Origin: Arminella tubonensis | Lineage (GTDB): Bacteria; Pseudomonadota; Alphaproteobacteria; Rhizobiales; Rhizobiaceae | Direction of reading: 5' to 3' | Assembly: GCF_003240585.1 (NCBI RefSeq) | Contig: NZ_PCDP01000019.1 | Span: 1 to 64,000 of the forward strand | Length of the DNA: 64,000 nucleotides | In this document: positions 33,430 through 62,168 of the stretch, one piece after another | How positions within the stretch are numbered: the first letter of the stretch is position 1 | Layout of the letters: the number at the start of each line of letters is the position of its first letter | Notes under the pieces: model-generated | Database searches by the model: none | Told to the model about the DNA's origin: nothing | The model's input: only the letters and a program-made list of their open reading frames with translations | Position numbers and translations under genes: made by a program

Positions 33430-34452
33430 ATGGTTGGAATTCGGGATATCGCGGCTCATTTGAACGTCTCGGTCGCAAGCGTGTCGCGGGCGCTCAACAA
33501 TCATCCCTATGTCAACGAGGAACTGCGACGACGTGTCGTCGAAAGCGCGAAGTTGCTTGGATATCAACCAAAGCAGTCGGGCCGCAGCCTTCGGCAGGGT
33601 GTCTCAAAAACCGTCGGTTTCATGATCGAGACCCACCCCAAGCTCACTAGCAATATCGATCTCTTCCTGATGTCGATCTTCGACGGCGTTCAAACGGTCA
33701 TGCGGCGCCACGCGCTTAGTCTCGTCGTCCTTCCCTGTAGTGGTGACGAAGACCCGGTGGAGTACCTGAGAGGCGTTGTGGAGCGGCGGTTTGTGGATGC
33801 CCTCATTCTTTCAGCCACGCGCCCAAATGACAAGCGCGTCGCTCTGCTGACGAAAGAGGGGATGCCCTTCATTACCCTTGGCCGAACGGGATTTCGCGAC
33901 AAGCAGCCATGGATCGATCTCGATTTTGAAAGTTTCGCAGAGCAATCGGTTGACCGGCTTTACCGGAGCGGAAATCGGAGAATTGCGATCATGGTGCCAG
34001 CCGGCCCATTGAATTTCGGGCAGATAACACTGGTTGGATACCAACGCGCCCTGGAAAAACGTGGCATTGCCTTCGATCCTGCACTTGTCGCCCATGTTGT
34101 GCTTGACGAGGCAAGCGCTGCATCCGCCTGCAACACACTATTGATGAATGCCGACCCGCCGACCGGTATCATCCTTATCAACGAAGCTTTGGCGTCCGGT
34201 GTCTATACGTGCCTGCGCCAATCCAATCTGGAGCCGGGTCGCGATGTCGAAATAGTCAGTCTCGAGGATGGTCGGTTGCGGAGCCTGCCCTCGCCCCTTA
34301 CGAGGTTTCGATTTGCGACCCACGACATCGGTATCGCGCTTGGGGAGTCCCTTCTTTCCCTCGTGCCTGCCTTTGCGCACTATTACGCAGGCACAGAATT
34401 TCAGCGACTTTGGCAATTTGAGGTCGTCGAGCCGACCGATCTGAACACCTGA
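33430..34452 (+). CDS. LacI-family transcriptional regulator
   Basis: The 340-residue protein has the LacI headpiece (VGIRDIAAHLNVSVASVSRALNNHPYVNEELRRRVVESAKLLGYQPKQSGRSLRQG, 2-57) with the hinge helix, then a periplasmic-binding-like effector domain (TVGFMIETHP..., NRRIAIMVPAGPLNFGQITLVGYQRAL). Such proteins sense a sugar or sugar derivative. No transport or sugar operon is adjacent, so it either controls distant genes or only itself. An in-frame TTG at 33427 is less likely than ATG 33430. Confidence 0.9.
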   Translation: MVGIRDIAAHLNVSVASVSRALNNHPYVNEELRRRVVESAKLLGYQPKQSGRSLRQGVSKTVGFMIETHPKLTSNIDLFLMSIFDGVQTVMRRHALSLVVLPCSGDEDPVEYLRGVVERRFVDALILSATRPNDKRVALLTKEGMPFITLGRTGFRDKQPWIDLDFESFAEQSVDRLYRSGNRRIAIMVPAGPLNFGQITLVGYQRALEKRGIAFDPALVAHVVLDEASAASACNTLLMNADPPTGIILINEALASGVYTCLRQSNLEPGRDVEIVSLEDGRLRSLPSPLTRFRFATHDIGIALGESLLSLVPAFAHYYAGTEFQRLWQFEVVEPTDLNT

Positions 34453-34923
34453 CGCTGGATCTTCGCGCGAGTGCGCGAGGCAGCCCTACAGTTTGGACCT
34501 GACTGCCAAAGCAAAGCCGCCCATCGGCTTTGGGGGTGATCGATGGGCGGCTTATTGCTGCGGCGCGTACGGCCATCATGGCCATCGCATTGCCTCCCAA
34601 TGGGTGCCGAGAGGATGGCAAGAATTCAAGGCCATGAAGGCCTTGCTCCGGTGATAGCTGTGCACAGCTTCTATTTTGCTTCGTTTTTTGTACAGACTTG
34701 CGCGATGCGCACATAGTTGCAGCCGGACGCTGTCATGGCTGCCGCGGCGAGCGACATTTCTGCCGCTCACCGACGTGGTAGTTCGGCTTGGCTCCTTCGT
34801 AGATTTTCCAGGAGACGTTTATTCGATCCGGCGAAAAAACGCACTGCTTTGCGGATTGCGGTGCAATGTGGATAGGGCCTGCGCAATGGGAATTCTGTAA
34901 CCGATCCCTGTTTACTTCAGGAT
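34453..34923. other. Stretch with a terminator but no gene
   Basis: Apart from the hairpin at 34514-34553 no gene-like frame was found. The frames present have poor composition. Confidence 0.4.
34514..34553. terminator. Perfect 13-bp stem-loop downstream of the LacI gene
   Basis: AAGCCGCCCATCG (34514-34526) pairs perfectly with CGATGGGCGGCTT (34541-34553) around a 14-base loop. It lies 61 bases after the stop. The T-run is short (CTTATT), so it may be a weak bidirectional terminator. Confidence 0.55.
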
Positions 34924-35560
34924 AAACTTTTGCCGCCTGCATTGAAGTCAATCCAAAAGTACGGGACCGGTGGTGTTGTGAATCCCGATTTACTGCTGTC
35001 GCAACTGCCCGCGTCCCTACCACCTTCATGGAAATTGCCGACATCCATTCGGTGAATGTCTCCGCCACATCGTCGGTCGCGGGTCCGGCGACATCCTATA
35101 TGAATGTCTATCTGGTGCTGGATAGGTCCGCATCGATGTTGCTTGCCGCCACTGCCGCCGGCCAATCCTCATTGAGGAACACGGCAAGCTGCAAATTTGC
35201 TTGTCACACCGTGGACAGTTCGGCCTAGAAATATAATGGCAAGAGCTATGGTACCGTCTACCAGGTGGCCGAGGCGATGGGGATAACCCTGCGCGCGGAC
35301 GTGACCGTTGAGGCGGTCGACGAAGTCCCGGACATGATTGACGATGCAAACATATCGAGCAGTCACATCAAACGGCGCTCTATACGATTGGTGCGAGCGC
35401 CGCTCGAGTTCTTGCCCCAACCTATTCCACGTCAACGACGCGGTCATATTCCAAGGATGATTCCGAAGGAGTCAACAGCGCCACGTCGGAAACAGGAAAT
35501 GGAAAATTCGGATTCGTGGTCATCGGAACTCCGATGCACAACTTGACAGTGCCAGCGGTG
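34924..35560 (+). pseudogene. Decayed TadG-like vWA pilus-assembly gene
   Basis: One frame reads TAVATARVPTTFMEIADIHSVNVSATSS and YMNVYLVLDRSASMLLAATAAG. The second includes a von Willebrand MIDAS motif (DRSAS) in the setting typical of TadG/Flp-pilus assembly proteins. A TAG at about 35227 breaks the frame, which resumes as YGTVYQVAEAMGITLRADVT, then shifts frame with ALYTIGASAARVLAPTYSTS. Both ends are missing. TadG proteins act in Flp pilus secretion at the envelope, and no other tad gene is nearby. Confidence 0.6.
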
Positions 35561-35735
35561 CTGAAAGCTGACAGACTAGGCCTTGCAAGAGCATTTTTCG
35601 TCGTTTTGTCCTTCACCGCGTGTTCTTCTGCCCGTCAGAGGCTGACGTCAGCATTTGAGCTGCTACGGGGGATCGTGCTAGACAGGTATCAGACCAGCGC
35701 CCAAAGCAAGATCCCGTATTGTCGAGGAAACTGCC

Positions 35736-36188
35736 ATGCCCAGGATTGACGTTGCCGCTATCCCGGAAGGAAAAGACAGCCCTTCTCCCTCTCAACTGAT
35801 AGATGCGAGAATCGAGGAGCTGAGTGATTGGCGGGGCGAGACGCTCGCGCGGATCCGAAGTCTCATCAGGGAGGCCGACCCGGAAGTGGTCGAGGAGTGG
35901 AAGTGGAGAGGAGTTCCCGTGTGGTCGCACGCCGGAATCATCTGCACCGGTGAGACTTACAAAAATGCCGTGAAGATGACCTTCGCCAAGGGCGCTTCTT
36001 TGGAGGACCCTTCGGGCCTCTTCAACTCAAGCCTCGAAGGCAACACCAGGCGTGCCATCGATTTTCATGAGGGCGACAAGATCGACGAAAGGGCGTTGAA
36101 GGCGCTCATTCGCGCCGCCGTGGCATTGAACCCGTTGGCGCGTGCCGCTGGCCCCGTCCGCTCTCAGAAGAGACCAGGGACCGCTTGA
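35736..36188 (+). CDS. DUF1801 domain protein (150 aa)
   Basis: The protein has the DUF1801 (YdhG-like) core: LIDARIEELSDWRGETLARIRSLIREADPEVVEEWKWRGVPVWSHAGIICTGETYKNAVKMTFAKGA, with the trailing LFNSSLEGNTRRAIDFHEGDKIDERALKALIRAAVALN. The fold is small, cytosolic and of unknown function, sometimes linked with iron-related proteins. A GAGGAAAC ribosome site stands just before the ATG. It is transcribed towards the minus-strand isomerase gene and is apparently a single gene. Confidence 0.85.
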   Translation: MPRIDVAAIPEGKDSPSPSQLIDARIEELSDWRGETLARIRSLIREADPEVVEEWKWRGVPVWSHAGIICTGETYKNAVKMTFAKGASLEDPSGLFNSSLEGNTRRAIDFHEGDKIDERALKALIRAAVALNPLARAAGPVRSQKRPGTA

Positions 36189-36276
36189 GGCGCGTTGAAA
36201 GAACGGCTGCAACAGGCCAATGCCGGCTGCGTGGCCCATTGTGTGAAGACTATGGTCACAAGGCGAGGCAGGGTGC

Positions 36277-36873
36277 CTATAGCCTATCGCCGCCGAAATG
36301 GCGTTCGAGGAAGGGCAGATTGTCCTGACCCCAATAGATCTCGCCGTCGTAGACGAATGTCGGAAACCCAAAGACACCTCTTTTGATCGCATGGTCGCGA
36401 TCGCCCGCCCATTTGGCCTTTACGTCTTCCTCGGCCTCCCGCCTGAGGAGCCCTGCGCCATCGAAGCCGGCGGCATCGGCAATCGCCTTGCGCACCTCCG
36501 GCTTGCCGATGTCTTCACCACGCACCCAGAAAGCCGCCTGCAGGGCGCGGGTGAGCGCAACCCAGTCATGGCCGTCTAAATAGGCGGCGATCACAGAGAG
36601 CGAGGCCGGGGCCGGATCGCCGAGCGCCGGGCGACTTTCAAGAAGAAGCTCCTTGCCTCGGACCTTGGCCCAGCGCTTCAGATCCCGCGTCCAATAGGCG
36701 CGGCGGGCCTCCGGGCGGTTGCGCGAGAAGATGCCGCCGTTCTCCTCGACGACGGTGGTGAGGAACGGCTTGATCTCGACGTCGTTCTTTCGGGCCAGAT
36801 CGAGGAAGGCGTCGAGGCCGATGAAGGACCACGGAGAGCCGATTGAAAAGAAGTATTCAACGATTTTCGTCAC
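36277..36873 (-). CDS. DsbA-like 2-hydroxychromene-2-carboxylate isomerase family protein
   Basis: The 198-residue protein has the thioredoxin-like start IVEYFFSIGSPWSFIGLDAFLDLARKNDVEIKPF, the Ser-containing SPWSF in place of the CxxC motif, and the C-terminal KRGVFGFPTFVYDGEIYWGQDNLPFLERHF, where FPTF is the cis-Pro loop. These define the HCCA isomerase/kappa glutathione transferase family, which uses glutathione. It is on the same strand as the organosulfur operon, 67 bases downstream, and could be its last gene. Confidence 0.85.
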   Translation of the reverse strand: MTKIVEYFFSIGSPWSFIGLDAFLDLARKNDVEIKPFLTTVVEENGGIFSRNRPEARRAYWTRDLKRWAKVRGKELLLESRPALGDPAPASLSVIAAYLDGHDWVALTRALQAAFWVRGEDIGKPEVRKAIADAAGFDGAGLLRREAEEDVKAKWAGDRDHAIKRGVFGFPTFVYDGEIYWGQDNLPFLERHFGGDRL

Positions 36874-36940
36874 TGATTGCAGTTCCTATAGGCGATGACT
36901 GAAGAATGAAATTTCCTAGCGGAGGTAACCTAACGGCAGC

Positions 36941-37993
36941 TCAGGCACGGCGTTTTTCGTTCGCCGACACCGTGGGAGACGTCGCTTTCCAACCGAGCTC
37001 CGGTGCGATCAGCGTAACGAAGTCATGCAGTATCTGGCAATATTCCTCGTGTTCGAATTCATAGGGAAGTTCGAGGCGCAATTCGCCGACATGTGGCAAG
37101 ATCGGATCCGCCAACAGTCGTCCGAGGATTTCATCCGATGTGCCGACGAGATCGCCGGCAAAAAGCGTACGGCGCTCACCCTGCGGCGTCAACGTCCGTT
37201 CGTGGCGCCCGCCGGCATAGTCGCGGTAGCGGCGGCGCGTGGTGGCGTCGGCGCTGTCGAGGGGAACGATAACCCGGCCAAGCGCGACGCGCCTTCCGGC
37301 TCCCCCAGCTGTCCGGTAGGTTTCAAGCTGACGCGACTGGGCGAGAAAGAAATCATCGGTCTCCTCGCCGGTGGTGACATTGCCGATCAGGAGATTGAAG
37401 CCGTTGCCACCTGCGAAGCGCGCCGAGCGCAACGACCCGCCACCATACCAGATCCGATTGACCAAACCCTTGGCATGCGGCTGCAGGCGCGGCCTTTGCG
37501 GACCGAAGGGCGTCTTGATGAACGTATTTTCGTCGCCGAGATACGTGCCGCGTAGATTGTCGGCGAACCGCAGGACGCGGTCATGGGAGAAATCATAAGT
37601 CGCCCAGTCGCCGTCAAAGGCAAGCGGCCCGATCAGATCGGCATGCAGCGGACGGCCGGCGCTGAGCCCGAGGTTCAATCGCCCACGCGAAAGCACATCG
37701 ACGGTCGAAAGGTCTTCGGCCAGCCGATAGGGGCTTTCGTAACCCATTGGGATCACCGCGGTTCCAAGCTGGATGCGGCTCGTCCTCTGCGTCGCCGCCG
37801 CCAGGAAAGCGGTTGCTGACGATATGCCGGGCTCCAGATGGCGCTGGCGAACCCAGGCGCTCTGAAAGCCGAGACCCTCGCCATATGCGAGAAGCTGCAG
37901 CGTCTTTTCAAGGCCGGAAAGCGGGTCCTCGTCTGGATAGTTGCCGGGCGTAAGGAAGCCGATATGGCCGATCGACGGGGCGCTGACGTTCAT
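36941..37993 (-). CDS. LLM class flavin-dependent oxidoreductase (luciferase-like monooxygenase)
   Basis: The 350-residue protein is a bacterial-luciferase-type TIM barrel with IGHIGFLTPGNYPDEDPLSGLEKTLQLLAYGEGLGFQSAWVRQRHLEPGISS, IQLGTAVIPMGYESPYRLAEDLSTVDVLSRGRLNLGLSAG, and WYGGGSLRSARFAGGNGFNLLIGN. It oxidises an organic substrate with reduced FMN and O2. It starts 13 bases after the second binding-protein gene. ATG 37993 was chosen over the long upstream frame because homology begins there. Its likely role is S-oxygenation in the operon. Confidence 0.88.
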   Translation of the reverse strand: MNVSAPSIGHIGFLTPGNYPDEDPLSGLEKTLQLLAYGEGLGFQSAWVRQRHLEPGISSATAFLAAATQRTSRIQLGTAVIPMGYESPYRLAEDLSTVDVLSRGRLNLGLSAGRPLHADLIGPLAFDGDWATYDFSHDRVLRFADNLRGTYLGDENTFIKTPFGPQRPRLQPHAKGLVNRIWYGGGSLRSARFAGGNGFNLLIGNVTTGEETDDFFLAQSRQLETYRTAGGAGRRVALGRVIVPLDSADATTRRRYRDYAGGRHERTLTPQGERRTLFAGDLVGTSDEILGRLLADPILPHVGELRLELPYEFEHEEYCQILHDFVTLIAPELGWKATSPTVSANEKRRA

Positions 37994-38006
37994 TTTCGTA
38001 TTTCTC

Positions 38007-38948
38007 TCAATATTTCGGCAGGCCAGGCGGATTGGTTTCCGACTTTGGTAGCGCTTCCTCCGCCAGATGCCAGTGGGCAAGAATCCTGGCATAGGTGCCG
38101 TTGGCGATCAGGCCATTGGTGGCGAGCGTCAGGCCATTGGCCAATCCGCTTGCCTTGCGCGTCGTGATCGCAACATCGGAACGATCGGGCCACCCCGCGC
38201 TCAACGTGCCGACACTTCTAATGTTCTTGTCACGCGCGGCGATGTAGACCAACTGCGCGTGCGGCTGGACGATCACATCGGCGCGGCCCGATGCCAACGC
38301 CAGCAGACTTGCCGCATCGTCGTCGTAATATTGCAGCGTCAGCGGCTTCAGCCCGGCGGCGACATTCTCCTTGTTCCATTCGACCAGGATACGCTCCTGA
38401 TTGGTCCCAGCGCCAACGATGATTGTCAGGCCGGCCGCGTCCTTCGGTTGCTTGATCGAGGTAACCCTGCTGTCAGACCTGACATAGATACCGTGCAAGC
38501 CCCGGCGATAGGTTGAGAAATCGAACTTTTCCTTACGCTGCTCCGTGACGCCGACATTGGAGATCACCGCGTCGTATTTGCCGGATGCGAGACCCAGCGG
38601 CCAGTCGATCCAGGCCACCGGTACGAGCTCCAGTTGAAGTCCGAGACTATCGGCGATGGCGGAGGCATAGTCTGGATCGGCACCAACGACCGTTGCAGCG
38701 TCGGTGGCGTAGGTTGCAAGCGGCGGGCCACCCGGACTGACGGCGACTGTGAATTTGCCTTTTGTGACGAACTTGAAATCCTTCGCAACAGCAGCGATGG
38801 CCGCATCATCCCGTTGGGCGTGGACACGGCCCGATTGCTCCGGACTCAGGTCGAAACCGACATCATCGGCGCGGGCCGCACCATAGTCCATCAGCGCTAA
38901 CATCATTAATGCGAGAGTGCATGCCCAAACTGCCGGTATGCTTGCCAT
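38007..38948 (-). CDS. Amino-acid ABC transporter substrate-binding protein (second copy)
   Basis: The 313-residue protein has a signal peptide (MASIPAVWACTLALMMLALMDYGAARAD) and the family 3 binding fold: KGKFTVAVSPGGPPLATYATDAATVVGADPDYASAIADSLGLQLELV, SGKYDAVISNVGVTEQRKEKFDFSTYRRG. It closely resembles the next binding protein upstream (SGKYDAVISNVTVTEERKEKFDFSTYRK). The pair may bind related substrates for one transporter. Family 3 binds polar amino acids and cystine-like compounds. Confidence 0.88.
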   Translation of the reverse strand: MASIPAVWACTLALMMLALMDYGAARADDVGFDLSPEQSGRVHAQRDDAAIAAVAKDFKFVTKGKFTVAVSPGGPPLATYATDAATVVGADPDYASAIADSLGLQLELVPVAWIDWPLGLASGKYDAVISNVGVTEQRKEKFDFSTYRRGLHGIYVRSDSRVTSIKQPKDAAGLTIIVGAGTNQERILVEWNKENVAAGLKPLTLQYYDDDAASLLALASGRADVIVQPHAQLVYIAARDKNIRSVGTLSAGWPDRSDVAITTRKASGLANGLTLATNGLIANGTYARILAHWHLAEEALPKSETNPPGLPKY

Positions 38949-39051
38949 TGGATCATCTCCGTATCAAAGTCTTCGTCATCAAATCAGGGGTTGCGGGCCG
39001 GTCGACAATTGCCGGGACCGGCCCGCGCTGGGCCCCACACCCAGGGACAGG

Positions 39052-39990
39052 TCAGGACTTTGGCAGGCCAGGCGGGTTGCTCAACGACTTGTCGATGGCT
39101 TCGGCCGCAAGGCTCCAGTGCTTCAGCACCTCGGCATACTTGCCGTCTTTGATCAGGCCATTGAGTGCGATGGTGACCGGATCGGCAAGGCCGCTGCCTT
39201 TGCGCGTCGTCACCGCAATTTCCGCCGTCAGCGGCCAGCCACCGCTGACTGTGCCGACCAGCTTGGTCTTGCCGGTGATCCCGGCGCTATAGGCGAGCGT
39301 CGCATTCGGATTGAACTCGACATCGGCGCGGCCCGATTGGATTGCCAGCTGGCTGGCGGCGGCATCGTCGTAATATTGCACCTCGATCGGCTTCAGGCCC
39401 TTGGCAATATTTTCCTTGTCCCAAGCCAGAATGATTTTTTCCTGGTTGGTGCCAGCGCCGGTAATCACCTTTAGTCCGGCAACATCCTTCGGCTCCTTGA
39501 TCGCCCCGATCGGGCTGTCGGACTTGACATAAAAGCCGAGCACGTCCTTGCGGTAGGTCGAAAAGTCGAACTTCTCCTTGCGCTCCTCGGTGACGGTGAC
39601 GTTGCTGATCACGGCATCATATTTGCCAGAGGCAACACCGAGCGGCCAGTCGGCCCAGGCGACCGACACCAGCTCCAACTCTAGGCCGAGACTGTCGGCG
39701 ATGAGTGAGGCGATGTCAGGATCGGCGCCGACAACAGTTTTCGCGTCGGAGGCATAGGTGGCGATCGGCGGGTCCCAGGCGTTGATCGCTACAGTGAATT
39801 TGCCCGGCGTTACGAATTTGAAGCTTGAGGGAATGGCCTTGACTGCCGCCTCGTTCTTTTCAGCGCGGACCCGGTTCGAAGTATCAGGGCTGAGATCGAA
39901 CTTTTCCGCCGCCTGCGCGGCACCGAGCCCAAGTGCAGCGAGAACAACGACCCCTGCCACGAGTGATTTCGTCGTGTTGAAAATTTTCAT
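39052..39990 (-). CDS. Amino-acid ABC transporter substrate-binding protein (first copy)
   Basis: The 312-residue protein has a signal peptide (MKIFNTTKSLVAGVVVLAALGLGAAQAAE) and the same family 3 fold as the next gene (TVVGADPDIASLIADSLGLELELVSVAWADWPLGVASGKYD). ATG 39990 was chosen because GGAG lies upstream and it opens the signal peptide. The gene lies between the fused permease-ATPase and the second binding protein, as paired SBPs do in the B. subtilis ytmJK arrangement. Confidence 0.88.
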   Translation of the reverse strand: MKIFNTTKSLVAGVVVLAALGLGAAQAAEKFDLSPDTSNRVRAEKNEAAVKAIPSSFKFVTPGKFTVAINAWDPPIATYASDAKTVVGADPDIASLIADSLGLELELVSVAWADWPLGVASGKYDAVISNVTVTEERKEKFDFSTYRKDVLGFYVKSDSPIGAIKEPKDVAGLKVITGAGTNQEKIILAWDKENIAKGLKPIEVQYYDDAAASQLAIQSGRADVEFNPNATLAYSAGITGKTKLVGTVSGGWPLTAEIAVTTRKGSGLADPVTIALNGLIKDGKYAEVLKHWSLAAEAIDKSLSNPPGLPKS

Positions 39991-40066
39991 GTATCCCGTC
40001 TCCATTTCATCTTATGGTTGAGTATACGCTTGGACCCGTCGTCCCCGCTGCGCATCGCGGCATTCA

Positions 40067-41872
40067 CTAGAGAACTTTTGCGAGGAATTCCCGGGTCCTG
40101 GGATGCTCGGCTTGCCCAAAGATCCGGGCGGGCGGTCCCGCTTCGAGGACGCGCCCGCCTTCCATGAAGATCACCGTATCGGCAACCTCCCGGGCAAAGC
40201 CGATCTCGTGCGTGACGATCACCAGCGTCGTCCCAGTGCGGGCGAGTTCCTTGATGACGTCCAGCACTTCGCCGACCAATTCAGGATCGAGCGCTGAGGT
40301 CGGCTCGTCGAAAAGCAGCACCGTCGGCCGCAGCGCCAGCGCGCGGGCAATCGCGACGCGCTGCTGCTGACCGCCGGAGAGCTGACGAGGATAAGCATCG
40401 ATCTTGTCGCCGAGGCCAACGCGGGCTAGGAGCTCCTTCGCCAGAAGCACCGCCTCCTCGCGCCTAACGCCGCGCACATAGACGGGAGCCTCGACCAGAT
40501 TCTCAAGGACAGTCAGATGCGGGAAGAGATTGAAGCTCTGGAAAACCATGCCGATGTCAGCTCGCCGCTTGAGAACATCCCTCTCCTTCAATTCGTAAAG
40601 CGTATCGCCCTTCTGGCTATAGCCCACGAGTTCGCCGTCAACCGAGATGAAGCCGTCATCGACGGGTTCAAGATGATTGATACTGCGCAGCAGTGTCGAC
40701 TTGCCGGAGCCGGAGGGGCCGAGGATGGCGGTAACACTGCCGGAAAGCAGCGTCAGGTCAATGTTGTCGAGGACCTGCAGCGAGCCGAACCGTTTGGAAA
40801 TCCCATGAATTCGTACGGTTCCGCCCTTGCGGAAAACACCGGCCTCGCGCAGAGAACCGGAAGCCCGGGCCGGTGCTCCGGTGCTGGCGCTGATGGCCGC
40901 GGTCAAGAGAAGTGGACGCCGGAAGCGCCGCAGGAATGCTTGAAATGGCGCTGGCGCCGGATTGCGCACCGCGCCCTTGGAAAAGTGGCGTTCGATGTAA
41001 TACTGGATCACTGACAGCACCGTCATGATCACCAGGTACCAGGCAGTCGCGACCATCAGCAGCGGAATGACTTCCAGATTGCGGCGGTAGATGACCTGGA
41101 CGGTATAAAACAGCTCCGGCAACGCCAGGACGTAGACGACCGACGTGCTTTTCGCAAGGCCGATGACTTCGTTGAAGCCCGTCGGCAAGATCGACCGCAT
41201 CGCCTGCGGCAGCACGATCTTGAAGACCTGACGATACCTGGGCAGACCGAGCGCGGCGGCGGCCTCCAGTTGCCCCTGATCGACGGACAAAATGCCGCCG
41301 CGCACGACTTCGGCCGAAAAAGCCGATTGATTGAGCGTCAACCCGAGAAAGGCTGCGGCAAACGGTGTCAGCAGCTGAACCGTGGGATAGTCGATGAGCA
41401 CCACATTGGTGAAGGGCACGCCGACATGGATCGTCTGGTAGAGATAACCGAGATTATTGAGCACCAAGAGCAGCACGATCATCGGAATTGAGCGCAATAG
41501 CCAGATATAGCCCCAGGATAGACCCGACAGCAGCGGCGATTTTGATACGCGGGCAAGCGCCAGCGCCGTTCCAAGGATCGACCCGGACACGGTCGCAAGC
41601 ACCGTCAGCAGCAGTGTCCGCCCCAGCCCTGCCAGGACGGGGGCCGCAAAAAACCATTCGGCAAAGATGTTCCAACCCCATTGCGGATTGGTGAATGTCG
41701 AATAGAGGATCGAACCGATGACCGCGACCGCAAATACCGAGCCCACCTGCCGGCTCGGATACCGGGCCGGGACGATCTTGTAGTGCGAATAGTCTGACCT
41801 CTGTTCGGCAGGCCTCTGCAAATTGGGTTGTCCGCTCGGCTCGATGCCGGCAAAATCCGTCGTAAGTGCCAT
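40067..41872 (-). CDS. Natural fusion of polar amino-acid ABC permease and ATPase
   Basis: The 601-residue protein has a HisM-type permease (about 45-295, EAA loop LEAAAALGLPRYRQVFKIVLPQAMRSILP). A linker rich in Ala and Arg (300-350) leads to a complete ATPase: Walker A GPSGSGKST (385-393), Q-loop MVFQSFNLFPHLTV, signature LSGGQQQRVAIARAL (498-512), Walker B LLFDEPTSALDP (519-530), switch His in IVTHEIGF. Permease and ATPase are usually separate genes. It partners two binding proteins downstream. Confidence 0.9.
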   Translation of the reverse strand: MALTTDFAGIEPSGQPNLQRPAEQRSDYSHYKIVPARYPSRQVGSVFAVAVIGSILYSTFTNPQWGWNIFAEWFFAAPVLAGLGRTLLLTVLATVSGSILGTALALARVSKSPLLSGLSWGYIWLLRSIPMIVLLLVLNNLGYLYQTIHVGVPFTNVVLIDYPTVQLLTPFAAAFLGLTLNQSAFSAEVVRGGILSVDQGQLEAAAALGLPRYRQVFKIVLPQAMRSILPTGFNEVIGLAKSTSVVYVLALPELFYTVQVIYRRNLEVIPLLMVATAWYLVIMTVLSVIQYYIERHFSKGAVRNPAPAPFQAFLRRFRRPLLLTAAISASTGAPARASGSLREAGVFRKGGTVRIHGISKRFGSLQVLDNIDLTLLSGSVTAILGPSGSGKSTLLRSINHLEPVDDGFISVDGELVGYSQKGDTLYELKERDVLKRRADIGMVFQSFNLFPHLTVLENLVEAPVYVRGVRREEAVLLAKELLARVGLGDKIDAYPRQLSGGQQQRVAIARALALRPTVLLFDEPTSALDPELVGEVLDVIKELARTGTTLVIVTHEIGFAREVADTVIFMEGGRVLEAGPPARIFGQAEHPRTREFLAKVL

Positions 41873-41905
41873 GATGCTTATCCCCGCAGGTACTGTCGGC
41901 TATCT

Positions 41906-42484
41906 TCAGGCGTTTCCCGCCGCACGCCGCAATCGCGGTCCAGCCGCATCTTCTAGAGCGACGTCCGCGAGATGGCCGACATCCTTTTCGAAGGGCAGCG
42001 TCCTGTGGATTTCGGGATCGATCGCCTGGTCGAACAGCGCCGTGTAGCCGTAGCCGAGATAAAGGCCCACTGCCTCGGGCTGCCTGAACCCTGTTGTCAG
42101 ATAGATGCGGGAATAGCCTTGCCGCGCCGCCTGGGTTTCCAGCTCGACCAGAATCCTTTTCGCCAGGCCCTGACGGCGTAAATCGTGGCGGGTCCAGATG
42201 CGCTTGAACTCGGCCGTGCGCTCATCATAGCGCCTGAAGGCGCCGCCACCGATTGTCTCGCCATCACGGATCAACAATAGGAAATTGCCGTCCGGCGGCG
42301 CAAAAGCTTCGGGCGGATAGCGATTTAGCTCCGCGGCAGCCCCTTCGGCATTGAAGAAAGTGCCGTAGCGGCTGTCATATTCGACGATTAGCTCGTCGAT
42401 CAGCGGCTTGGCGCGTGGATCAATTGGGCTCGTATAGAGAAAAGTATCGGTCATGTTGGTTGCCAATCCCTTTGCCGTCTTCAT
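41906..42484 (-). CDS. GNAT-family N-acetyltransferase
   Basis: The 192-residue protein has the acetyl-CoA fold: a central strand FLLLIRDGETIGGGAFRRYDERTAEFKRIWTRHDLRRQGLAKRILVELETQAARQGYSRIYLTTGFRQPEAVGLYLGYGY, where RRQGLAKRI (about 125-133) is the motif A loop. In the ytmI/yxe-type pathways this enzyme N-acetylates an S-alkylcysteine as the first step. ATG 42484 overlaps the M20 stop (ATGA); ATG 42454 (MTDTFLYTS) is the alternative start and looks equally good. It is co-transcribed with the fused ABC gene. Confidence 0.85.
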   Translation of the reverse strand: MKTAKGLATNMTDTFLYTSPIDPRAKPLIDELIVEYDSRYGTFFNAEGAAAELNRYPPEAFAPPDGNFLLLIRDGETIGGGAFRRYDERTAEFKRIWTRHDLRRQGLAKRILVELETQAARQGYSRIYLTTGFRQPEAVGLYLGYGYTALFDQAIDPEIHRTLPFEKDVGHLADVALEDAAGPRLRRAAGNA

Positions 42485-43668
42485 TTGAGGAAGGTCTCAA
42501 CAAGCCGCACCCAGTAGTGGGCGGCGGGCGCGATGATCGCGTCGTTGAAATCATAGTAGGCGCTGTGGAGCGGCGCGCTGTCGCCATTGCCGACGAAGAG
42601 GTAGCTGCCCGGCTGCGCCTGCAGCATGAAGGCGAAGTCCTCGCTCGCCGTGCGCGGCCTGAAACCCTGTTCGATCCGACTGTCGCCGAACGTTTCAAGC
42701 GCCACTAGGCGGGCAAAGGCGGTCTCGTCGCGATGATTGAGGAGGGCCGGAAAACCAAGCCGGTAGTCGACTTCGGCATGGGCGCCAAAACTTTCGGCCT
42801 GCGCTCGGGCAAGCGCCGGAATGCGCTCCTTGAGCTGTTCCCGGATGCTTTCCTTGAAGGCCCGCATGGTCAGCTTCAACTCGACATTCTCGGGGATGAC
42901 GTTCGAGGCTGAGCCACCATGGATGGAGCCGACGGTGACGACCGCCATGTCCTGCGGATCGACATTGCGCGACACCACGCTTTGCAACGCCGTGATGAAG
43001 GAAGCGGACGCAAGCACCGGGTCGACCGCCTTCTGCGGTTCGGCTCCATGACCGCCCTTGCCGACAATGCGGATTTTCGCCTGATCGACGGAAGCCATGG
43101 CAGGACCCTCGACGAAGCCGAACTGGCCAAGGGATACGCCCGGCCAATTGTGCAGCCCGAACACAGCATCAACAGGAAACCGCACGAACAGCCCTTCGGA
43201 AATCATCGTGCGGGCGCCGGCGCCGATCTCCTCGGCTGGCTGGAAGATCAGGCGAAGCGTGCCATTAAAATTTCCGCTGTCTGTAAGGTAGCGAGCCGCT
43301 GCCAGCAGGATCGACGTGTGGCCGTCGTGGCCGCAGGCATGCATGACGCCAGGATTGTTGCTGGCATAGGCGAGCCCCGTTGCCTCCTCGATCGGCAAAG
43401 CGTCCATATCGGCGCGGATACCGATCCGCTTTTCACCGTCTCCGCGCCTGAGGGTGGCAACAATGCCGGTGCCGGCAATGCCCGTGGCCACTTCGTAGCC
43501 CCAGGAGGAAAGATGGGACGCGATGATCTTGCTCGTCCGACGCTCCTGGAAGGCGAGCTCGGGATATTGATGGAAGTCGCGGCGCAGTGCGATGATCTCG
43601 TCGAGATAGCTGGCAATTTTCCTCTCGACCGGGTCGCTTGCAGCGTGGCTCGGGGCGATGACGTCCAT
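42481..43668 (-). CDS. M20-family amidohydrolase (N-deacylase)
   Basis: The 395-residue protein has the peptidase M20D layout: EIIALRRDFHQYPELAFQERRTSKIIASHLSSWGYEV, GIRADMDALPIEE, the metal ligands in HACGHDGHTSILLAAARYL and LIFQPAEEIGAGARTMISEGLF. A dimerisation domain follows (KIRIVGKGGHGAEPQKAVDPVLASASFI). Family members remove acyl groups from N-acyl amino acids, here probably N-acetylcysteine after S-dealkylation. GGGGAG lies 7 bases before ATG 43668; the upstream ATG at 43689 has none. Confidence 0.9.
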   Translation of the reverse strand: MDVIAPSHAASDPVERKIASYLDEIIALRRDFHQYPELAFQERRTSKIIASHLSSWGYEVATGIAGTGIVATLRRGDGEKRIGIRADMDALPIEEATGLAYASNNPGVMHACGHDGHTSILLAAARYLTDSGNFNGTLRLIFQPAEEIGAGARTMISEGLFVRFPVDAVFGLHNWPGVSLGQFGFVEGPAMASVDQAKIRIVGKGGHGAEPQKAVDPVLASASFITALQSVVSRNVDPQDMAVVTVGSIHGGSASNVIPENVELKLTMRAFKESIREQLKERIPALARAQAESFGAHAEVDYRLGFPALLNHRDETAFARLVALETFGDSRIEQGFRPRTASEDFAFMLQAQPGSYLFVGNGDSAPLHSAYYDFNDAIIAPAAHYWVRLVETFLK

Positions 43669-43685
43669 GGCAATCTCCCCGGCGC

Positions 43686-45032
43686 TCACGCGCCGACGAC
43701 CTTTCCATGTTCAACGTCTTCCCGAGCGGCATAGCGGCTTTCGCGGTAGGGCAAGCCCAGATGGTCGCGCAGCGTCTCGCCCTTTAGCACCGGGTCGAAA
43801 TAGCCGCGTTTTGCAAGGATCGGAAGAACGTATTTGGCGAAGTCGTCGAAACCTTCCGCGATCACGGGAAAGCCGAGGATGAAGCCATCGGCGGCGTCTC
43901 CGTCCACCCAGCGGACGATCTCATCGGCGATATGGTCCGCCGTGCCGATGAAACTCGTCCGCGGGGTAGCGACATCGAGAGCAATCTCGCGCAGCGTGAG
44001 CCCCTTCTCGCGTGCCGTCTTCTTGATGCGATCGGTGGTGGCGCGGAAATTGTTGCGGCCAATATCGCCCAGATCAGGAAACGGCTCGTCCAGCGGATAG
44101 ACACTGAAATCGTGATGGTCGAAGAAGCGACCGAGGTAGAGCAGCGCCTCCTCGATAGTGACAAGGTTGCGGATCGCCTGATACTTCGCTTCCGCCTCTT
44201 CAGCCGTCGCCCCGACGATCGGGCCGATGCCCGGATAAATGCCGACCTCCGCGGCCGGCCGGCCGTGCGCGATCACGCTGTCCTTGAGCTGTCGATAGAA
44301 CGCCCTCGCTTCCTCGATCGGGCCGCCGTTCGTGAAGACGGCATCGGCATGCTTGCCTGCAATCCGGATACCCGAGTCTGAGGCGCCTGCCTGGAAGACG
44401 ACCGGCTGGCCTTGCTTGGATCGGCCGATATTCAGCGGCCCTTCGATCCGGAAGAAGCGGCCCCTGTGGTTGAGGCGGTGCAACTTCGCCTTGTCGACAT
44501 AGACGCCTGTTTCGCGGTTGCGGATGAAAGCATCGTCATCCCATGAATCCCAGAGCCCCTTGATGGCATCGAGATATTCATCGGCGATCTCGTAACGCAG
44601 CTCGTGCTCGGGATGTTCGCGGCTGTAGTTGCGGCCCGAACCTTCGAGAGGCGAGGTGACGGCATTCCAGCCCGCCCTGCCCCCGCTTATCAGATCGATC
44701 GTCGCGAACTGCCGGGCAATCGTGAAAGGGTCGCTATAGGAGGTCGAGACCGTACCCACCAGGCCGATCTTCGAGGTCGAGGCGGCCAGCGCCGAAAGGA
44801 TGGAAATCGGTTCGAAGCGATTGAGGAAATGCGGGATCGACTGCTCGTTGATGTAAAGACCGTCGGCGACGAAAGCAAAAGCGATACCCGCCGCTTCGGC
44901 CTTGCGGGCGGTGTTGACGAAGAACTCGAAATTGACGCTTGCATCCGGCGGCCCGCTCGGATGCTTCCATGCGTTCATGTGGCCACCAGGCCCCTGCAGC
45001 ATGATGCCGAACGTGATGCGTTTCTTTGCCAT
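43686..45032 (-). CDS. NtaA/DmoA-family FMN-dependent monooxygenase
   Basis: The 448-residue protein belongs to the NtaA/SnaA/DszA/SoxA group: ITFGIMLQGPGGHMNAWKHP, FVADGLYINEQSIPHFLNRFEPISILSALAASTSKIGLVGTVSTSYSDPFTIARQFATIDLISGGRAGWNAVTS, QPVVFQAGASDSGIRIAGKHADAVFTNG, GTADHIADEIVRWVDGDAADGF. Such proteins use FMNH2 for oxidative C-S or C-N cleavage. In the cysteine-salvage pathway this is the CmoJ/YtnJ-type step. ATG 45032 has AGGA 8 bases upstream; an ATG at 45059 overlaps the previous stop. A flavin reductase is not present in the operon. Confidence 0.9.
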   Translation of the reverse strand: MAKKRITFGIMLQGPGGHMNAWKHPSGPPDASVNFEFFVNTARKAEAAGIAFAFVADGLYINEQSIPHFLNRFEPISILSALAASTSKIGLVGTVSTSYSDPFTIARQFATIDLISGGRAGWNAVTSPLEGSGRNYSREHPEHELRYEIADEYLDAIKGLWDSWDDDAFIRNRETGVYVDKAKLHRLNHRGRFFRIEGPLNIGRSKQGQPVVFQAGASDSGIRIAGKHADAVFTNGGPIEEARAFYRQLKDSVIAHGRPAAEVGIYPGIGPIVGATAEEAEAKYQAIRNLVTIEEALLYLGRFFDHHDFSVYPLDEPFPDLGDIGRNNFRATTDRIKKTAREKGLTLREIALDVATPRTSFIGTADHIADEIVRWVDGDAADGFILGFPVIAEGFDDFAKYVLPILAKRGYFDPVLKGETLRDHLGLPYRESRYAAREDVEHGKVVGA

Positions 45033-45055
45033 GGGATCAGTCCTTTCGAAGAATA

Positions 45056-46048
45056 TCATGCGGCCAGCAAATGCCGTTCCTTGGCGAGCAATTCGATGGA
45101 GGAGAAGCGTTCGGCAGCAGTCAACGCCGGCGTATCGAGAATGAATTCCTTGACGCCGTAGCGCTGATGCAATTGGTCGAGTTCCTTACGGATCTGCGGC
45201 GCCGTGCCGTGCAACACGCTCGGGATCTTCTCCTCGACGCGATAATCGCTGATGCCGGATTGGCGAGCGAATTCGGCCGCCTGCTCCTCGGTGCCGACAT
45301 TGACGCTCTGGCCGTTGGATAGAAAAACCTTGAAGATGCGGAGATCGCCCACGCGTTGGCGCGCCTGCTCCTCGCTCTCGGCGGCAAAGGCCGCCAGTGC
45401 CAGGATCGGGCTCTTGCCGCCGCTCGCCACCTCGTAGGCCTCGAAGGTCTTCTTCAGGTTTTCCGGATCCCCGTTCAAATGGCCAGCAAAAACCAGCTCC
45501 CAACCCTTTTCCGCGGCAAGCTTCGCGCTCTCGACGGAAGCACCCAGCAGGAAGCGTTCGGCGGCGACCGAGGGAAGCGGCGTAGCGACGATGCCCTCCG
45601 AACCGAAATCGGCCGCGAGATAGCTATTGATGTCAGACAGTTGGTCGGCAAAGCTCGGCTTGCGTGCCGGATCGACCGCAGCCTGCAGCGCATTCGTCGA
45701 CAGCGGGAAGCCGCCTGGCGCCTTGCCGACCCCGAGATCCACGCGGCCGGGTGCAAGCGATGCCAGAAGATTGAAGGTCTCAGCCACCTTGTACGCGCTA
45801 TAGTGCTGCAACATGACCCCACCGGAGCCGATACGGATGCGTGATGTCTTGGCGAGCAGATAGGCGATCAGCGTCTCGGGCGCCGAGCTTGCGAGAGTGG
45901 CCGTGTTGTGGTGCTCGGCCACCCAAAACCTGTGATAGCCGAGCTGCTCGGCCTTCATGGCTAGCCGCACCGTCGACTGCAGGGCGTCGCTGGCATCTTT
46001 TCCAGGCTCGGTGGGGCTCTTGTCGAGAAGACTAAGGAGGTAGGTCAT
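45056..46048 (-). CDS. LLM flavin-dependent oxidoreductase (CmoO/YtmO-like)
   Basis: The 330-residue protein is a small luciferase-like barrel: MTYLLSLLDKSPTEPGKDASDALQSTVRLAMKAEQLGYHRFWVAEHHNTATLASSAPETLIAYLLAKTSRIRIGSGGVMLQHYSAYKVAETFNLLASLAPGRVDLGVGKAPGG, then EFILDTPALTAAERFSSIELLA. It is the first gene of the minus operon; its AAGGAGG ribosome site lies just before ATG 46048. In B. subtilis a similar protein (YtmO) accompanies YtnJ. Probable role: oxidising S-alkylated N-acetylcysteine. Confidence 0.88.
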   Translation of the reverse strand: MTYLLSLLDKSPTEPGKDASDALQSTVRLAMKAEQLGYHRFWVAEHHNTATLASSAPETLIAYLLAKTSRIRIGSGGVMLQHYSAYKVAETFNLLASLAPGRVDLGVGKAPGGFPLSTNALQAAVDPARKPSFADQLSDINSYLAADFGSEGIVATPLPSVAAERFLLGASVESAKLAAEKGWELVFAGHLNGDPENLKKTFEAYEVASGGKSPILALAAFAAESEEQARQRVGDLRIFKVFLSNGQSVNVGTEEQAAEFARQSGISDYRVEEKIPSVLHGTAPQIRKELDQLHQRYGVKEFILDTPALTAAERFSSIELLAKERHLLAA

Positions 46049-46409
46049 TTCATCGAAACCATCTGTAATTGCTATAGTCTATAAAATCAGTAGATATTAT
46101 CAATTATAAGAAAAGACGTTCTATTTCCGGCCGCAGCCGGAGAATAAAGTCGCTGTCAACCGCGATGGAAGGATCGACAGCCGGCGCATCCGATGTCGTG
46201 CGGGATCCATGAGCGCGCAGCGACGTCAGCGGCGCGACAGTTTATCGCGTCGCGCGTGGACGACATCGACGGCCCTGAACCGTTGGGCAAAAACAGCTTG
46301 GTTCGCCATCTCAATATATGAGGAATGTCGGATGCTCGATCTGCCGGACATAAAAAAGTGCTCCGCCAGCTAACGATCTTTGAACTTTACACTAGGTAGT
46401 GAATGTAAC
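46049..46409. other. Intergenic region between the organosulfur operon and the GGDEF gene
   Basis: The DNA next to the operon is AT-rich (46060-46120), holds the shared sulfur motif, and carries a TTGATA / TAGACT pair spaced 16 on the minus strand. The rest (about 46120-46400) shows no gene. Confidence 0.5.
46074..46110 (-). promoter_or_regulatory. Putative sulfur-control element A
   Basis: ATAGTCTATAAAATC (46074-46088) and the next 22 bases match the block upstream of the sulfonate operon at 57828 (13 of 15 in the core, 27 of 37 over the block by eye). ATAG-T-CTAT is a palindromic core. It overlaps the likely -10 region of the minus operon, whose first ATG is 26 bases away. Confidence 0.5.
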
Positions 46410-47984
46410 ATGTCCTACCACCTGCGAGAGCTCTACATGCGCCACCGTGTCAGCATCAACGATCTGGGCATCATCGTCGCGTCCCTACTGGTATTGATAT
46501 TCGTGGCATACGAAGTCGACATATTCGCGAACGAAGCCTCCGTCACGTTTCGACAAGAGACAATTGAACTTGATGAGGTTTTGTTGCTCGGCGGCTGCCT
46601 CGCGGTTGGCCTGCTCGGGTTTTCGGTGCGTCGCTATATCGAGCAGAAGCGGGAGATGAACCGCCGCGTCGAAGCTGAACGTTATGCCCGACAATTGGCG
46701 TTCCAGGATCCATTGACCGGTCTTGCCAATCGCAGGCAGTTTGACGACGCACTGAGAGTTGCGATCGCGTCGCCGCCGGCTGCCGGGGCAGCGCATGCTC
46801 TGTTGATGCTCGATCTGAACGGGTTCAAAAAAATCAATGATAGCTTTGGCCACGGCACAGGCGACGAGCTTCTTGTCATAGTGGCGCAACGGCTCTCCGC
46901 GGCCATGAGGCCGGGCGATCTCATCGCCAGACTGGGTGGCGACGAGTTTGCGGTCCTGGCGCTGCACGTGTCTGGACCAGAGGCAGCAAGCAACATCGCT
47001 CACCGGATTGTCCAGGCTTTATCTGAACCGGTGACCATTGCACAAAGCCAACACCATATCGGGACAGGAATTGGAATAGCACTCCTTCCGAGCGATGCTC
47101 AAACCGCTCAGGAGGGGATTCGAAAAGCCGATGTCGCACTTTATCGCGCCAAGACCGAACACCGCTCTGCAACTCGGTTTTTCGAGGAGCAGATGGATGT
47201 GGTCTTGCGGGAGCGCGCGGAGATGGAGCTGCATCTCAGGGCCGCGATAGCGTCAGATCTGATCTATCCACGCTTTCGACCATCGTTCGATCTGTTGGGT
47301 GGAAGCGTTGCGGCCTTCGAAGCGATACCCTCCTGGCTGCTGCCTGGCGCCGCGGAAGTTCCGGTTGAGCGGCTAGTCGCAATTGCCGAGGAAAGTGGCC
47401 TGATCCATGCGATCGGCGAAACTGTCCTGCGCAAGGCTTGCCTGGCCGCCAGATCCTGGCCGACGCATACCAAGCTGTCGATCGATATCTATCCCGGGCA
47501 GCTGAGCGATCCGTCTTTCGGTGCGACGACGCTTAGAGTATTGCATGAGACAGGGTTCGATCCTGCCCGACTTGAGGTAGAAATCGCCGAAAGCATGCTC
47601 GTTCGCGAACTTGATGCTGCGAAGGTGGCGCTTGCGCCGCTGCGACAGGCTGGAGTGACCATCACGCTTGACCACTTCGGGACCGGCTATTCAAGCCTTT
47701 ACCACATGAACGAGTTCAAGATCGACAAGGTGAAGATCGACCGTCGCTTTGCCGAACACCTGGATGGGCAGGGCGCCGATCGGATGGTCCGAGCTTTGGC
47801 AGGATTTGGCCATGGCCTCGGCCTGCTCGTCAGCGCAGAGGGCTCATCGGATCTGATGGGCCAGGTCTCGCTCCTAAGCTCCGGCGTCCAGCAAAACCAA
47901 CCCGTGTCTGAGCCGATCTCCTCCGAAGATGCGCTGGCGATGAGTTTTGCGGATTTGCATGTGTCTCCGCGTTCAGGATCGTGA
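46410..47984 (+). CDS. Membrane diguanylate cyclase with degenerate EAL domain
   Basis: The 524-residue protein has two membrane helices (about 19-37 and 55-75), a GGDEF domain (about 95-258) and an EAL-like domain (about 275-510). GGDEF is perfect (RLGGDEFAVL, 176-180), with an RxxD inhibitory site (RPGD, 167-170). The EAL part is altered at several catalytic positions: EAL reads FEAI (303-306), the Asn of xNLS is Asp359 (SIDI), DDFGTGYS reads DHFGTGYSSL (421-430), and the QGY motif is QQNQP. It should make c-di-GMP, and its EAL domain is probably not a working phosphodiesterase. ATG 46410 was preferred to a TTG at 46380. Confidence 0.85.
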   Translation: MSYHLRELYMRHRVSINDLGIIVASLLVLIFVAYEVDIFANEASVTFRQETIELDEVLLLGGCLAVGLLGFSVRRYIEQKREMNRRVEAERYARQLAFQDPLTGLANRRQFDDALRVAIASPPAAGAAHALLMLDLNGFKKINDSFGHGTGDELLVIVAQRLSAAMRPGDLIARLGGDEFAVLALHVSGPEAASNIAHRIVQALSEPVTIAQSQHHIGTGIGIALLPSDAQTAQEGIRKADVALYRAKTEHRSATRFFEEQMDVVLRERAEMELHLRAAIASDLIYPRFRPSFDLLGGSVAAFEAIPSWLLPGAAEVPVERLVAIAEESGLIHAIGETVLRKACLAARSWPTHTKLSIDIYPGQLSDPSFGATTLRVLHETGFDPARLEVEIAESMLVRELDAAKVALAPLRQAGVTITLDHFGTGYSSLYHMNEFKIDKVKIDRRFAEHLDGQGADRMVRALAGFGHGLGLLVSAEGSSDLMGQVSLLSSGVQQNQPVSEPISSEDALAMSFADLHVSPRSGS

Positions 47985-48053
47985 CGGAAATATCCCACTG
48001 TCATCGCCGGAGGACGGTTTTTGCGCAGGATAAAATCATCTCCACTCGGCTTC

Positions 48054-57864: not shown

Positions 57865-57902
57865 CTACACTGGCATGGATGAATTTTTGGAAGGGGACCT
57901 CC

Positions 57903-58931
57903 ATGACAGACCAAATTCCCACGAACCGCATTTTCTCTCGCCGCAATTTCCTCAAGGCCGCAGGCATTGCGGGAGCCGCGGCTACAGTTGGCGCGATCGG
58001 CGCTCGAACGACAAGCTACGCGATCGCCGGCAATCTCGACAAGGTCAAGCTCGAATGGACGGAGGTAGCAGCGTGTCACTCCCCGATCGGCTTTGGTGTT
58101 GACAGGGGCTTTTATACGAAACACGGCCTTGACGTGGAGCTGTTCTATCAAGGCGCCAGCGGCCAGACGCTGATCCAGTCGCTCGCCACTCACAAGGCAG
58201 AGGCTGGTCCCGGGCTCCTCTACGATTGGCTGAAGCCGATCGAGCAGGGCTTTGACGTCAAGCTCTTCGTAGGTTCACACGGCGGATGCCAGCGGCTTCT
58301 TGTCAAGAAAGATTCCGGCATCAAGTCGCTTGCGGACCTGAAGGGCAAGACCATCGGGACCTTCGATGTCGGCTCGCCTTCTCGGGTCGCCTTCTCGGTT
58401 GCGCTTGCCAAGGCTGGCATCAATCCGGAGCAGGATGTCACTTGGAAGGTCTTCCCGTTCGACCTGGTGGCAGAAGGCGTGGAGCGTGGCGAGGCGGACG
58501 CCGTCGCCCATATGGACCCATGGGCCTTTTCCTATGAGAAGAAATACGACCTCCTGAAGATCTATGACACCCAGACCGGCATCTTCGAAGACCGCGTCTG
58601 CTGCGTCCTCGGCGTGAACGGCGAATATTACAATTCCAACAAGGACATCATCCGCCGCGTCGCCGCCGCCAATCTGGATATTCATCAATATACCGGCGAA
58701 CACCCCGACGAAGTAGCGAAGTGGTATTTCGACAATCTGAAGCCAGGCATATCGGTCGAAGACCTGACCGAAGTCCTCTCAGGGCTCGTCTATCACAAGC
58801 ACTGGTTCGGCAAGGATCTGACCAGCGAGGTGCAGATCGCCTACGAAAATCTCAAGCTGACAGGTGTAATTGATCCGGGTACCGATCCGGAAGAAATCGC
58901 CCATCGCGTAACCCTCGATATCTTCGCGTGA
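57903..58931 (+). CDS. Sulfonate/taurine-type ABC transporter substrate-binding protein
   Basis: The 342-residue protein has a twin-arginine signal (IFSRRNFLKAAGIAGAAATVGAIGA) and the SsuA/TauA-type fold: HSPIGFGVDRGFYTKHGLDVELFYQGASGQTLIQSLATHKAEAGPGLLYDWL, KSLADLKGKTIGTFDVGSPSRVAFSVALAKAGINPEQDVTW. GAAGGGG lies 6 bases before the ATG. Tat rather than Sec export suggests a folded protein. The ligand is probably an organic sulfonate or other sulfur compound, given the downstream genes. Confidence 0.85.
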   Translation: MTDQIPTNRIFSRRNFLKAAGIAGAAATVGAIGARTTSYAIAGNLDKVKLEWTEVAACHSPIGFGVDRGFYTKHGLDVELFYQGASGQTLIQSLATHKAEAGPGLLYDWLKPIEQGFDVKLFVGSHGGCQRLLVKKDSGIKSLADLKGKTIGTFDVGSPSRVAFSVALAKAGINPEQDVTWKVFPFDLVAEGVERGEADAVAHMDPWAFSYEKKYDLLKIYDTQTGIFEDRVCCVLGVNGEYYNSNKDIIRRVAAANLDIHQYTGEHPDEVAKWYFDNLKPGISVEDLTEVLSGLVYHKHWFGKDLTSEVQIAYENLKLTGVIDPGTDPEEIAHRVTLDIFA

Positions 58932-58941
58932 GTTGGCTTCG

Positions 58942-61032: not shown

Positions 61033-61076
61033 TCCCTGGACGTCCTAAGAACAAGCCTATTCTAGGAGCTTCTCCC

Positions 61077-62111: not shown

Positions 62112-62168
62112 CCAGCTGTCCCGCGACGCCCCGAAGAACAATGCTCACATTCAAGAGAGGCGAATAGA

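Follow-up and report, generated by a model that had tools for sequence, protein, structure and literature searches.

In Bacillus subtilis, CmoO converts N-acetyl-S-alkylcysteine to its sulfoxide and CmoJ splits that sulfoxide, yielding an aldehyde and N-acetylcysteine sulfenic acid (PMC10863075), and the N-acetylcysteine deacetylases are given as ScmP, YhaA and YtnL, with ScmP (YxeP) a proven one (PMC12757645). Two gene sets come closest to the genes considered here: ytm, with the order ytmI tcyJKLMN ytmO ytnIJ rbfK ytnLM (PMC2885750) and ytlI as divergent activator (PMC9239247), and scm/yxe, whose parts list comprises YxeK, L, MNO, P and Q (PMC9706529). Here, we describe a row of nine genes in a 64,000-nt stretch of Arminella tubonensis DNA (contig NZ_PCDP01000019.1; hereafter the window), which very probably forms an S-alkylcysteine salvage operon of the CmoO/CmoJ type, with its core chemistry transferred from B. 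subtilis. We take CmoO and CmoJ to be YtmO and YtnJ of B. subtilis, respectively.

Operon layout, core enzymes and proposed pathway

The nine open reading frames (ORFs) are intact and closely spaced on the minus strand, running from 46048 to 36277 (Table 1), and domain and family searches recovered the families that an earlier sequence-only reading had named on this strand. Its paired family 3 binding proteins and fused transporter were likewise found, PF00497 occurring twice, in two paralogous proteins (187 of 312 aligned residues identical), and PF00528 and PF00005 sharing one ORF. The first three gene junctions are 4-base overlaps and the remaining five are gaps of 13-103 bases, as in a putative single transcript. 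For the third luciferase-like monooxygenase (LLM), hereafter LLM3, the ORF lister gives a start at 38092, but a methionine at 37993 agrees with its relatives, and with this start the overlap with the preceding gene disappears.

Table 1 Coordinates of the operon genes, the upstream element and the second cluster that holds relatives of the two accessory proteins.
Feature	Position	Strand	Basis or content
Conserved promoter-region element CTTATAA-N9-TCTAC-N3-TTTTATAGA	46078-46110	-	33 bp, alignment upstream of first gene
CmoO-like (YtmO-like) MsnO8-family LLM	45056-46048	-	TIGR03558, 327 bits (cut-off 167)
CmoJ-like (YtnJ-like) NtaA/DmoA-family monooxygenase	43686-45059	-	TIGR03860, 492 bits (cut-off 280)
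M20 amidohydrolase/deacylase	42481-43689	-	TIGR01891, 347 bits (cut-off 154)
GNAT acetyltransferase	41906-42484	-	PF00583
Amino-acid ATP-binding cassette (ABC) permease-ATPase fusion, one ORF	40067-41872	-	PF00528 at 98-298, PF00005 at 368-526
Family 3 periplasmic binding protein 1	39052-40005	-	PF00497
Family 3 periplasmic binding protein 2	38007-38948	-	PF00497
LLM3, third LLM, 350 amino acids	36941-37993	-	PF00296
2-Hydroxychromene-2-carboxylate (HCCA) isomerase/kappa-class glutathione S-transferase (GST)-like protein, DSBA fold	36277-36873	-	PF01323
Second rhizobial cluster	L066 49-13267 and L226-L239		GST-like protein, dipeptide importer, LLMs, SfnB-like protein; MsuE in L066

Among solved structures, the NtaA-family enzyme is closest to 3sdo, presumably a Burkholderia protein, and then to the YtnJ chains 1tvl, 1yw1 and 6ask at E ~1e-163, with the next match at E 3e-88; together with its TIGR03860 score above cut-off, this makes it YtnJ/CmoJ-type by sequence likeness. 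The gene adjoining it, in an arrangement that is conserved, belongs to the MsnO8 family (TIGR03558), and its product, which has MsnO8 (4us5) as its best solved structure, is placed at the level of that family, to which YtmO also belongs. An acetyltransferase and a deacetylase are both present at the family level: the best solved relative of the M20 enzyme is YxeP (1ysj, E 2.3e-72), and the GNAT protein has only distant matches among solved structures (best E 1.3e-7). The ATPase part of the fusion is closest to the models for EhuA and TcyN, without reaching either cut-off. On these grounds, we propose that the CmoO-like enzyme is an S-oxygenase, the CmoJ-like enzyme the C-S cleaving step and the M20 enzyme an N-acetylcysteine deacetylase, and, from its gene position, that the GNAT protein is an S-alkylcysteine N-acetyltransferase.

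In the resulting scheme, import of S-substituted cysteines or close derivatives would fall to the two binding proteins and the permease-ATPase fusion, and the GNAT enzyme would N-acetylate what is imported; the CmoO-like enzyme would then make the sulfoxide, and the CmoJ-like enzyme would split the C-S bond oxidatively to yield an aldehyde and N-acetylcysteine sulfenic acid. The latter would subsequently be reduced, and the M20 enzyme would finally free cysteine. LLM3 and the kappa-GST-like protein would be accessory and most likely broaden the range or handle by-products, LLM3 perhaps by oxidising S-substituents or the released aldehyde, and the GST-like protein perhaps by applying glutathione to the sulfenic acid or to a freed electrophile. 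The families, gene order and conservation are observed directly; the substrate and the roles of these two proteins are inferred.

Distribution of the core and its tie to LLM3

The annotated records of Rhizobium etli CFN 42 (p42c), Rhizobium sp. Pop5 and R. johnstonii 3841 (pRL10) have these nine genes in identical order, so the arrangement is not a matter of chance. Among 199 Rhizobiaceae genomes, a CmoJ orthologue (limit E 1e-170) occurs in 11 and LLM3 (limit E 1e-60) in eight, all of them within those 11, and the two genes lie within ~6 kb of each other in seven of the eight; the linkage, which the sequence-only reading had wanted checked in other rhizobia, thus holds here as in the three annotated records. 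Across 249 genomes of the order, the orthologue (E 1e-170) is found in six and LLM3 at 60% identity or more in the same six (on two contigs in G203), with 40 further genomes holding only an LLM3 relative of ~30% identity. Among 398 Pseudomonadota, CmoJ relatives (E 1e-120) number 26 genomes, which include all six with LLM3 (E 1e-60); where CmoJ identity reaches at least 67% (11 genomes), LLM3 accompanies it in six.

Named loci were gathered with LLM3 as bait, at least 574 relatives being confirmed and the best 80 kept, each with at most 10 kb of flanking sequence per side. Under fixed score limits, the CmoO-like, GNAT and permease-ATPase genes are present in 62 of the 80, which, LLM3 being the bait, is the share of LLM3 loci with the core and not the reverse. 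Within these 62 operons, the CmoJ-like gene is intact in 61 and in two pieces in one (L111), and M20 is present in 56; the order CmoO-CmoJ-M20-GNAT-permease/ATPase-binding protein is kept in most LLM3 loci and persists in rearranged form in operons that lack LLM3. Three loci end at contig edges with importer parts alone visible, and 15, some on short contigs, show no core gene (12 from Actinomycetota, two from Rouxiella and a Variovorax contig that starts at LLM3). Hosts of the core include Rhizobium, Ensifer, Phyllobacterium, Microvirga, Labrys, Mesorhizobium, Devosia, Bosea and Variovorax, and in Pantoea sp. SS70 core parts are annotated in another order and without LLM3. A separate retrieval of 28 CmoJ loci has a CmoO-like gene nearby in 22. 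In Pantoea sp. At-9b pPAT9B03 (L065), a partial LLM3-like match at ~12000-12425, in two pieces and without a listed gene, is probably a broken copy, and a Klebsiella operon is adjoined by a glutathione S-transferase gene.

The extra LLM had been read as the mark of a rhizobial variant, which its distribution contradicts: it also sits in the operon of Bosea, Devosia, Labrys, Variovorax and others, and it is missing from the operon of a genome of the window's own genus (G474). There, the operon (L190) includes the GST-like gene, with binding protein 2 close to it and no LLM3 between them; G474 is therefore a natural LLM3 deletion for comparison. In a tree of 63 CmoJ proteins, the LLM3 labels need four changes where shuffled labels need 19 on average, for a sample in which one in five of the 34 closest loci was kept, loci lacking a 600-bit CmoJ-like stretch were dropped, L217 was labelled positive since LLM3 lies on another contig of its genome, and many rows had been chosen with LLM3 as bait; the program also warned of long branches. 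The tree is consistent with one LLM3 gain and a few losses.

The 33-bp element upstream of the first gene is partly palindromic (TCTA...TAGA) and likely represents a putative operator/promoter. Its strict form occurs in 39 of 63 upstream regions (the window and 62 loci), and the whole genome holds one site at two or fewer mismatches, with none expected in window shuffles. A weighted-matrix scan of the loci returned strong matches upstream of the operon; weaker matches, scoring 19.2-24.7, were in part at other places, in L068 and in L119 and L067, which by their length are one and the same contig. The copy at L119 13357 (Labrys sp. WJW; score 24.7) lies ~1.2 kb past the end of a cysteine-synthase-like gene, which in Labrys directly follows LLM3 and scores 313 bits, short of the 344 required.

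Genes neighbouring the operon were counted in the 80 loci by G+C-based gene picking, families being named from one representative each, and include MsuE-type flavin mononucleotide (FMN) reductases in 13 loci, ChaC-type gamma-glutamylcyclotransferases in 11, serine hydrolases in 11 and cystathionine beta-lyase-type genes in nine. Almost all of them follow the operon on its own strand, one FMN reductase and one serine hydrolase instead preceding it, and for the ChaC type the family name also draws on annotation in the R. etli CFN 42 and R. johnstonii records. The ChaC-type genes in 11 of 80 loci give circumstantial backing to an origin of the substrate in glutathione conjugates, a possibility that the sequence-only reading had raised. 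An FMN reductase is also part of the Listeria ytmI operon (PMC9239247). In the window, between the operon end and 33.4 kb, none of these neighbour families was seen; that interval includes a LacI-type regulator gene and one DUF1801 gene.

Several of these results, and some further ones, weigh against the salvage reading. The core occurs without LLM3 in G474, G542, f89, f92, G681 and G727; LLM3 is ~31 kb from the operon in G795 and has no recognised core within the flanks of the 12 Actinomycetota and two Rouxiella loci; M20 was not seen within the flanks of six of the 62 named operons; and the CmoO-like and GNAT proteins are assigned at the family level only. Nor does the upstream element, with its single genomic site at that stringency, reveal a wider sulfur regulon. 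Since the core also occurs without LLM3, LLM3 is a common accessory rather than an essential part, and together with the six operons in which M20 is unseen this means that not every part is needed.

With these points weighed, CmoO/CmoJ salvage, worked out in B. subtilis, would be distributed patchily among rhizobia and other proteobacteria, in which the operon is often carried on a plasmid, and the close tie of a third flavin enzyme to it in many carriers makes the role of that enzyme testable by deletion. Among the titles and abstract openings listed by a literature search that covered few subscription papers, none describes the operon or LLM3 in rhizobia, which is a weak negative.

LLM3, the cysteine-free GST-like protein and a second cluster

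LLM3 is strongly conserved in an alignment of 56 rows (the window and 55 of the 80 loci). Its best family match is TIGR04027 (KPN_01858), at 88 bits and below the cut-off of 412.9, so it falls outside that family and appears instead as its sister group. The structural model (pLDDT 89, a measure of model confidence) is a luciferase-type barrel, with 8k74 as nearest solved structure, the aligned part of which does pass TIGR04027 (518 bits against 413). This protein (PCX02514) is reported to be a poly(acrylic acid) monooxygenase that needs reduced nicotinamide adenine dinucleotide phosphate (NADPH) and not added flavin, with a kcat of 0.002 per second (PMC11354265). LLM3 differs from this nearest curated family and structure in scoring far under the cut-off and in belonging to another operon. 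The LLM3 relatives of the Streptomyces and Oerskovia loci have genes for a dipeptide-type importer next to them, and the one binding protein searched resembles TIGR04028 at 330 bits (cut-off 469). In Pantoea sp. SS70, three TRAP-transporter genes separate the operon from a TIGR04028-type importer; the Klebsiella record lists none within 18 kb, an absence given little weight since its gene table is incomplete. The window's own genome (G000) encodes a TIGR04027 member above cut-off (L003) and seven NtaA/DmoA-family monooxygenases above cut-off.

The product of the last gene of the operon had been called a DsbA-like isomerase and is more precisely an HCCA-isomerase/kappa-GST-like protein of the DSBA fold. 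The protein has no cysteine at all and hence no CxxC motif, and in alignment its Ser13 falls on the serine with which HCCA isomerase and kappa GST activate glutathione. Ser13 is invariant in 24 of 24 rows (the window plus 23 loci, the 24th locus that has the gene being excluded for its two-piece copy), and the model (pLDDT 84) has HCCA isomerase and kappa GST as best fold matches, with disulfide oxidoreductases behind. Fold and serine are thus common to these enzymes and the window protein, at an identity of only ~20%. The absence of cysteine, the aligned and invariant serine and the fold match together make the protein glutathione-transferase-like and not a disulfide oxidoreductase. A thioredoxin-type redox role, as sulfenic-acid reductase, was considered and is ruled out by the absence of cysteine.

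The GST-like gene is present in 24 of the 62 named core operons (in L085 in two pieces) and is mainly a Rhizobium/Ensifer feature of the operon, more so than LLM3. Among the 199 Rhizobiaceae genomes, the protein has nine matches in eight genomes: three in this operon (G000, G780 and G474), one in L225 at 74% identity without a recognised neighbour, and five, at 57-61% identity, in a second cluster that is also present in R. ruizarguesonis (L066; GST-like protein 61% identical). In all six second clusters, genes for a dipeptide importer are accompanied by a further LLM and an SfnB-like protein, several of the probes having been taken from L066, itself one of the six. An LLM3 homologue was found in five (34% identical in L066) and not in that of G727, and a molybdopterin S/N-oxide reductase in four and not in those of G720 and G623. 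Relatives of both accessory proteins therefore recur in another organosulfur-looking cluster.

This recurrence raises the question of whether LLM3 and the GST-like protein constitute a separate pathway for another class of organosulfur compound, sharing only importer and promoter with the CmoO/CmoJ pathway. The GST relatives (57-61%) in a different cluster of five rhizobial genomes and R. ruizarguesonis, accompanied by an LLM3 homologue in five of six, speak for such a division. However, in the sampled proteobacterial genomes LLM3 at 57% identity or more is confined to those with a CmoJ orthologue, the two Rouxiella loci without the core running counter to this, and most LLM3 operons lack the GST-like gene (present in just 24 of 62), which in turn occurs without LLM3 in G474, so the two are not obligate partners. 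We therefore regard a separate pathway as rather unlikely and retain the salvage operon with two accessory proteins.

Somewhat less doubtful, and offered tentatively, is the idea that LLM3-type monooxygenases and cysteine-free kappa-GST-like proteins form a portable organosulfur module, associated with at least two importer and cleavage systems, that supplies an extra step (e.g., acting on S-substituents or aldehydes). If so, the related 8K74 enzyme would itself be an organosulfur enzyme and the poly(acrylic acid) activity reported for it a side activity. The salvage operon would also offer a lead toward sulfur metabolism for TIGR04027-related LLMs and for those rhizobial 'DsbA family' proteins that lack the cysteines of thiol-disulfide oxidoreductases.

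Other genes of the window and comparison with known systems

Elsewhere in the window, a sulfur-looking cluster on the plus strand (57879-63530) encodes an SsuA/NMT1-like binding protein, a permease, an ATPase, a 2-oxoglutarate-Fe(II) oxygenase and an O-acetylhomoserine/O-acetylserine sulfhydrylase, and beyond it, just past the window, lies a below-cut-off LLM match (G000:C83:68751). A pyridoxal-phosphate enzyme of Cys/Met metabolism (15051-16226, plus strand) scores above the PRK05968 cut-off; from their translations, read without a search, the genes after it resemble a sugar-type ABC importer, and the ORF next to the operon (46380-47984) looks like a GGDEF/EAL protein. ARAGORN found no transfer RNA in the window, and an Rfam search of 34000-48000 returned nothing at gathering scores.

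A rival reading of the operon is an scm/yxe-type pathway for S-(2-succino)cysteine (2SC), in which the NtaA-family enzyme would be a YxeK (ScmK) that cleaves N-acetyl-2SC directly and the MsnO8-type enzyme would be unrelated. Both systems have a GNAT protein, an NtaA-family monooxygenase, an M20 enzyme and an ABC importer, and YxeP is the best solved relative of the M20 enzyme. Yet the nearest named PDB relatives of the monooxygenase are YtnJ chains, no PDB entry there being named YxeK; an MsnO8-type gene lies near the intact CmoJ-like gene in 61 of 61 named loci and in the 22 of 28 further CmoJ loci; and the scm/yxe parts list (PMC9706529) has no MsnO8-type enzyme, LLM3 or GST-like protein. 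The missing MsnO8-type enzyme makes ytm the better fit, and we consider the scm/yxe route improbable. The match to ytmI/yxe parts proposed from the sequence alone accordingly holds better for ytm, with its CmoO/CmoJ pair, than for yxe. Less probable still is general uptake of cystine, cysteine or other amino acids alongside detoxifying monooxygenases without dealkylation, for although curated models of cystine and polar amino-acid systems match the binding proteins and the ATPase, in every case under the cut-off, a GNAT, an M20 and two LLMs in one tight gene row specifically fit acetyl-protection chemistry, and the linkage spans alpha-, beta- and gammaproteobacteria (Rhizobium and others, Variovorax, Pantoea).

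The probable CmoO/CmoJ-type salvage operon of the window compares best with B. subtilis ytm. The two have in common a GNAT protein, paired binding proteins, an amino-acid ABC importer, MsnO8-type and YtnJ-type monooxygenases and an M20 enzyme. Beside the window operon no ytlI-like divergent activator was recognised, and its gene row has no counterpart of ytnI, rbfK or ytnM. It differs further in gene order and in the fusion of permease and ATPase, and it adds to the ytm complement the genes for LLM3 and the GST-like protein.

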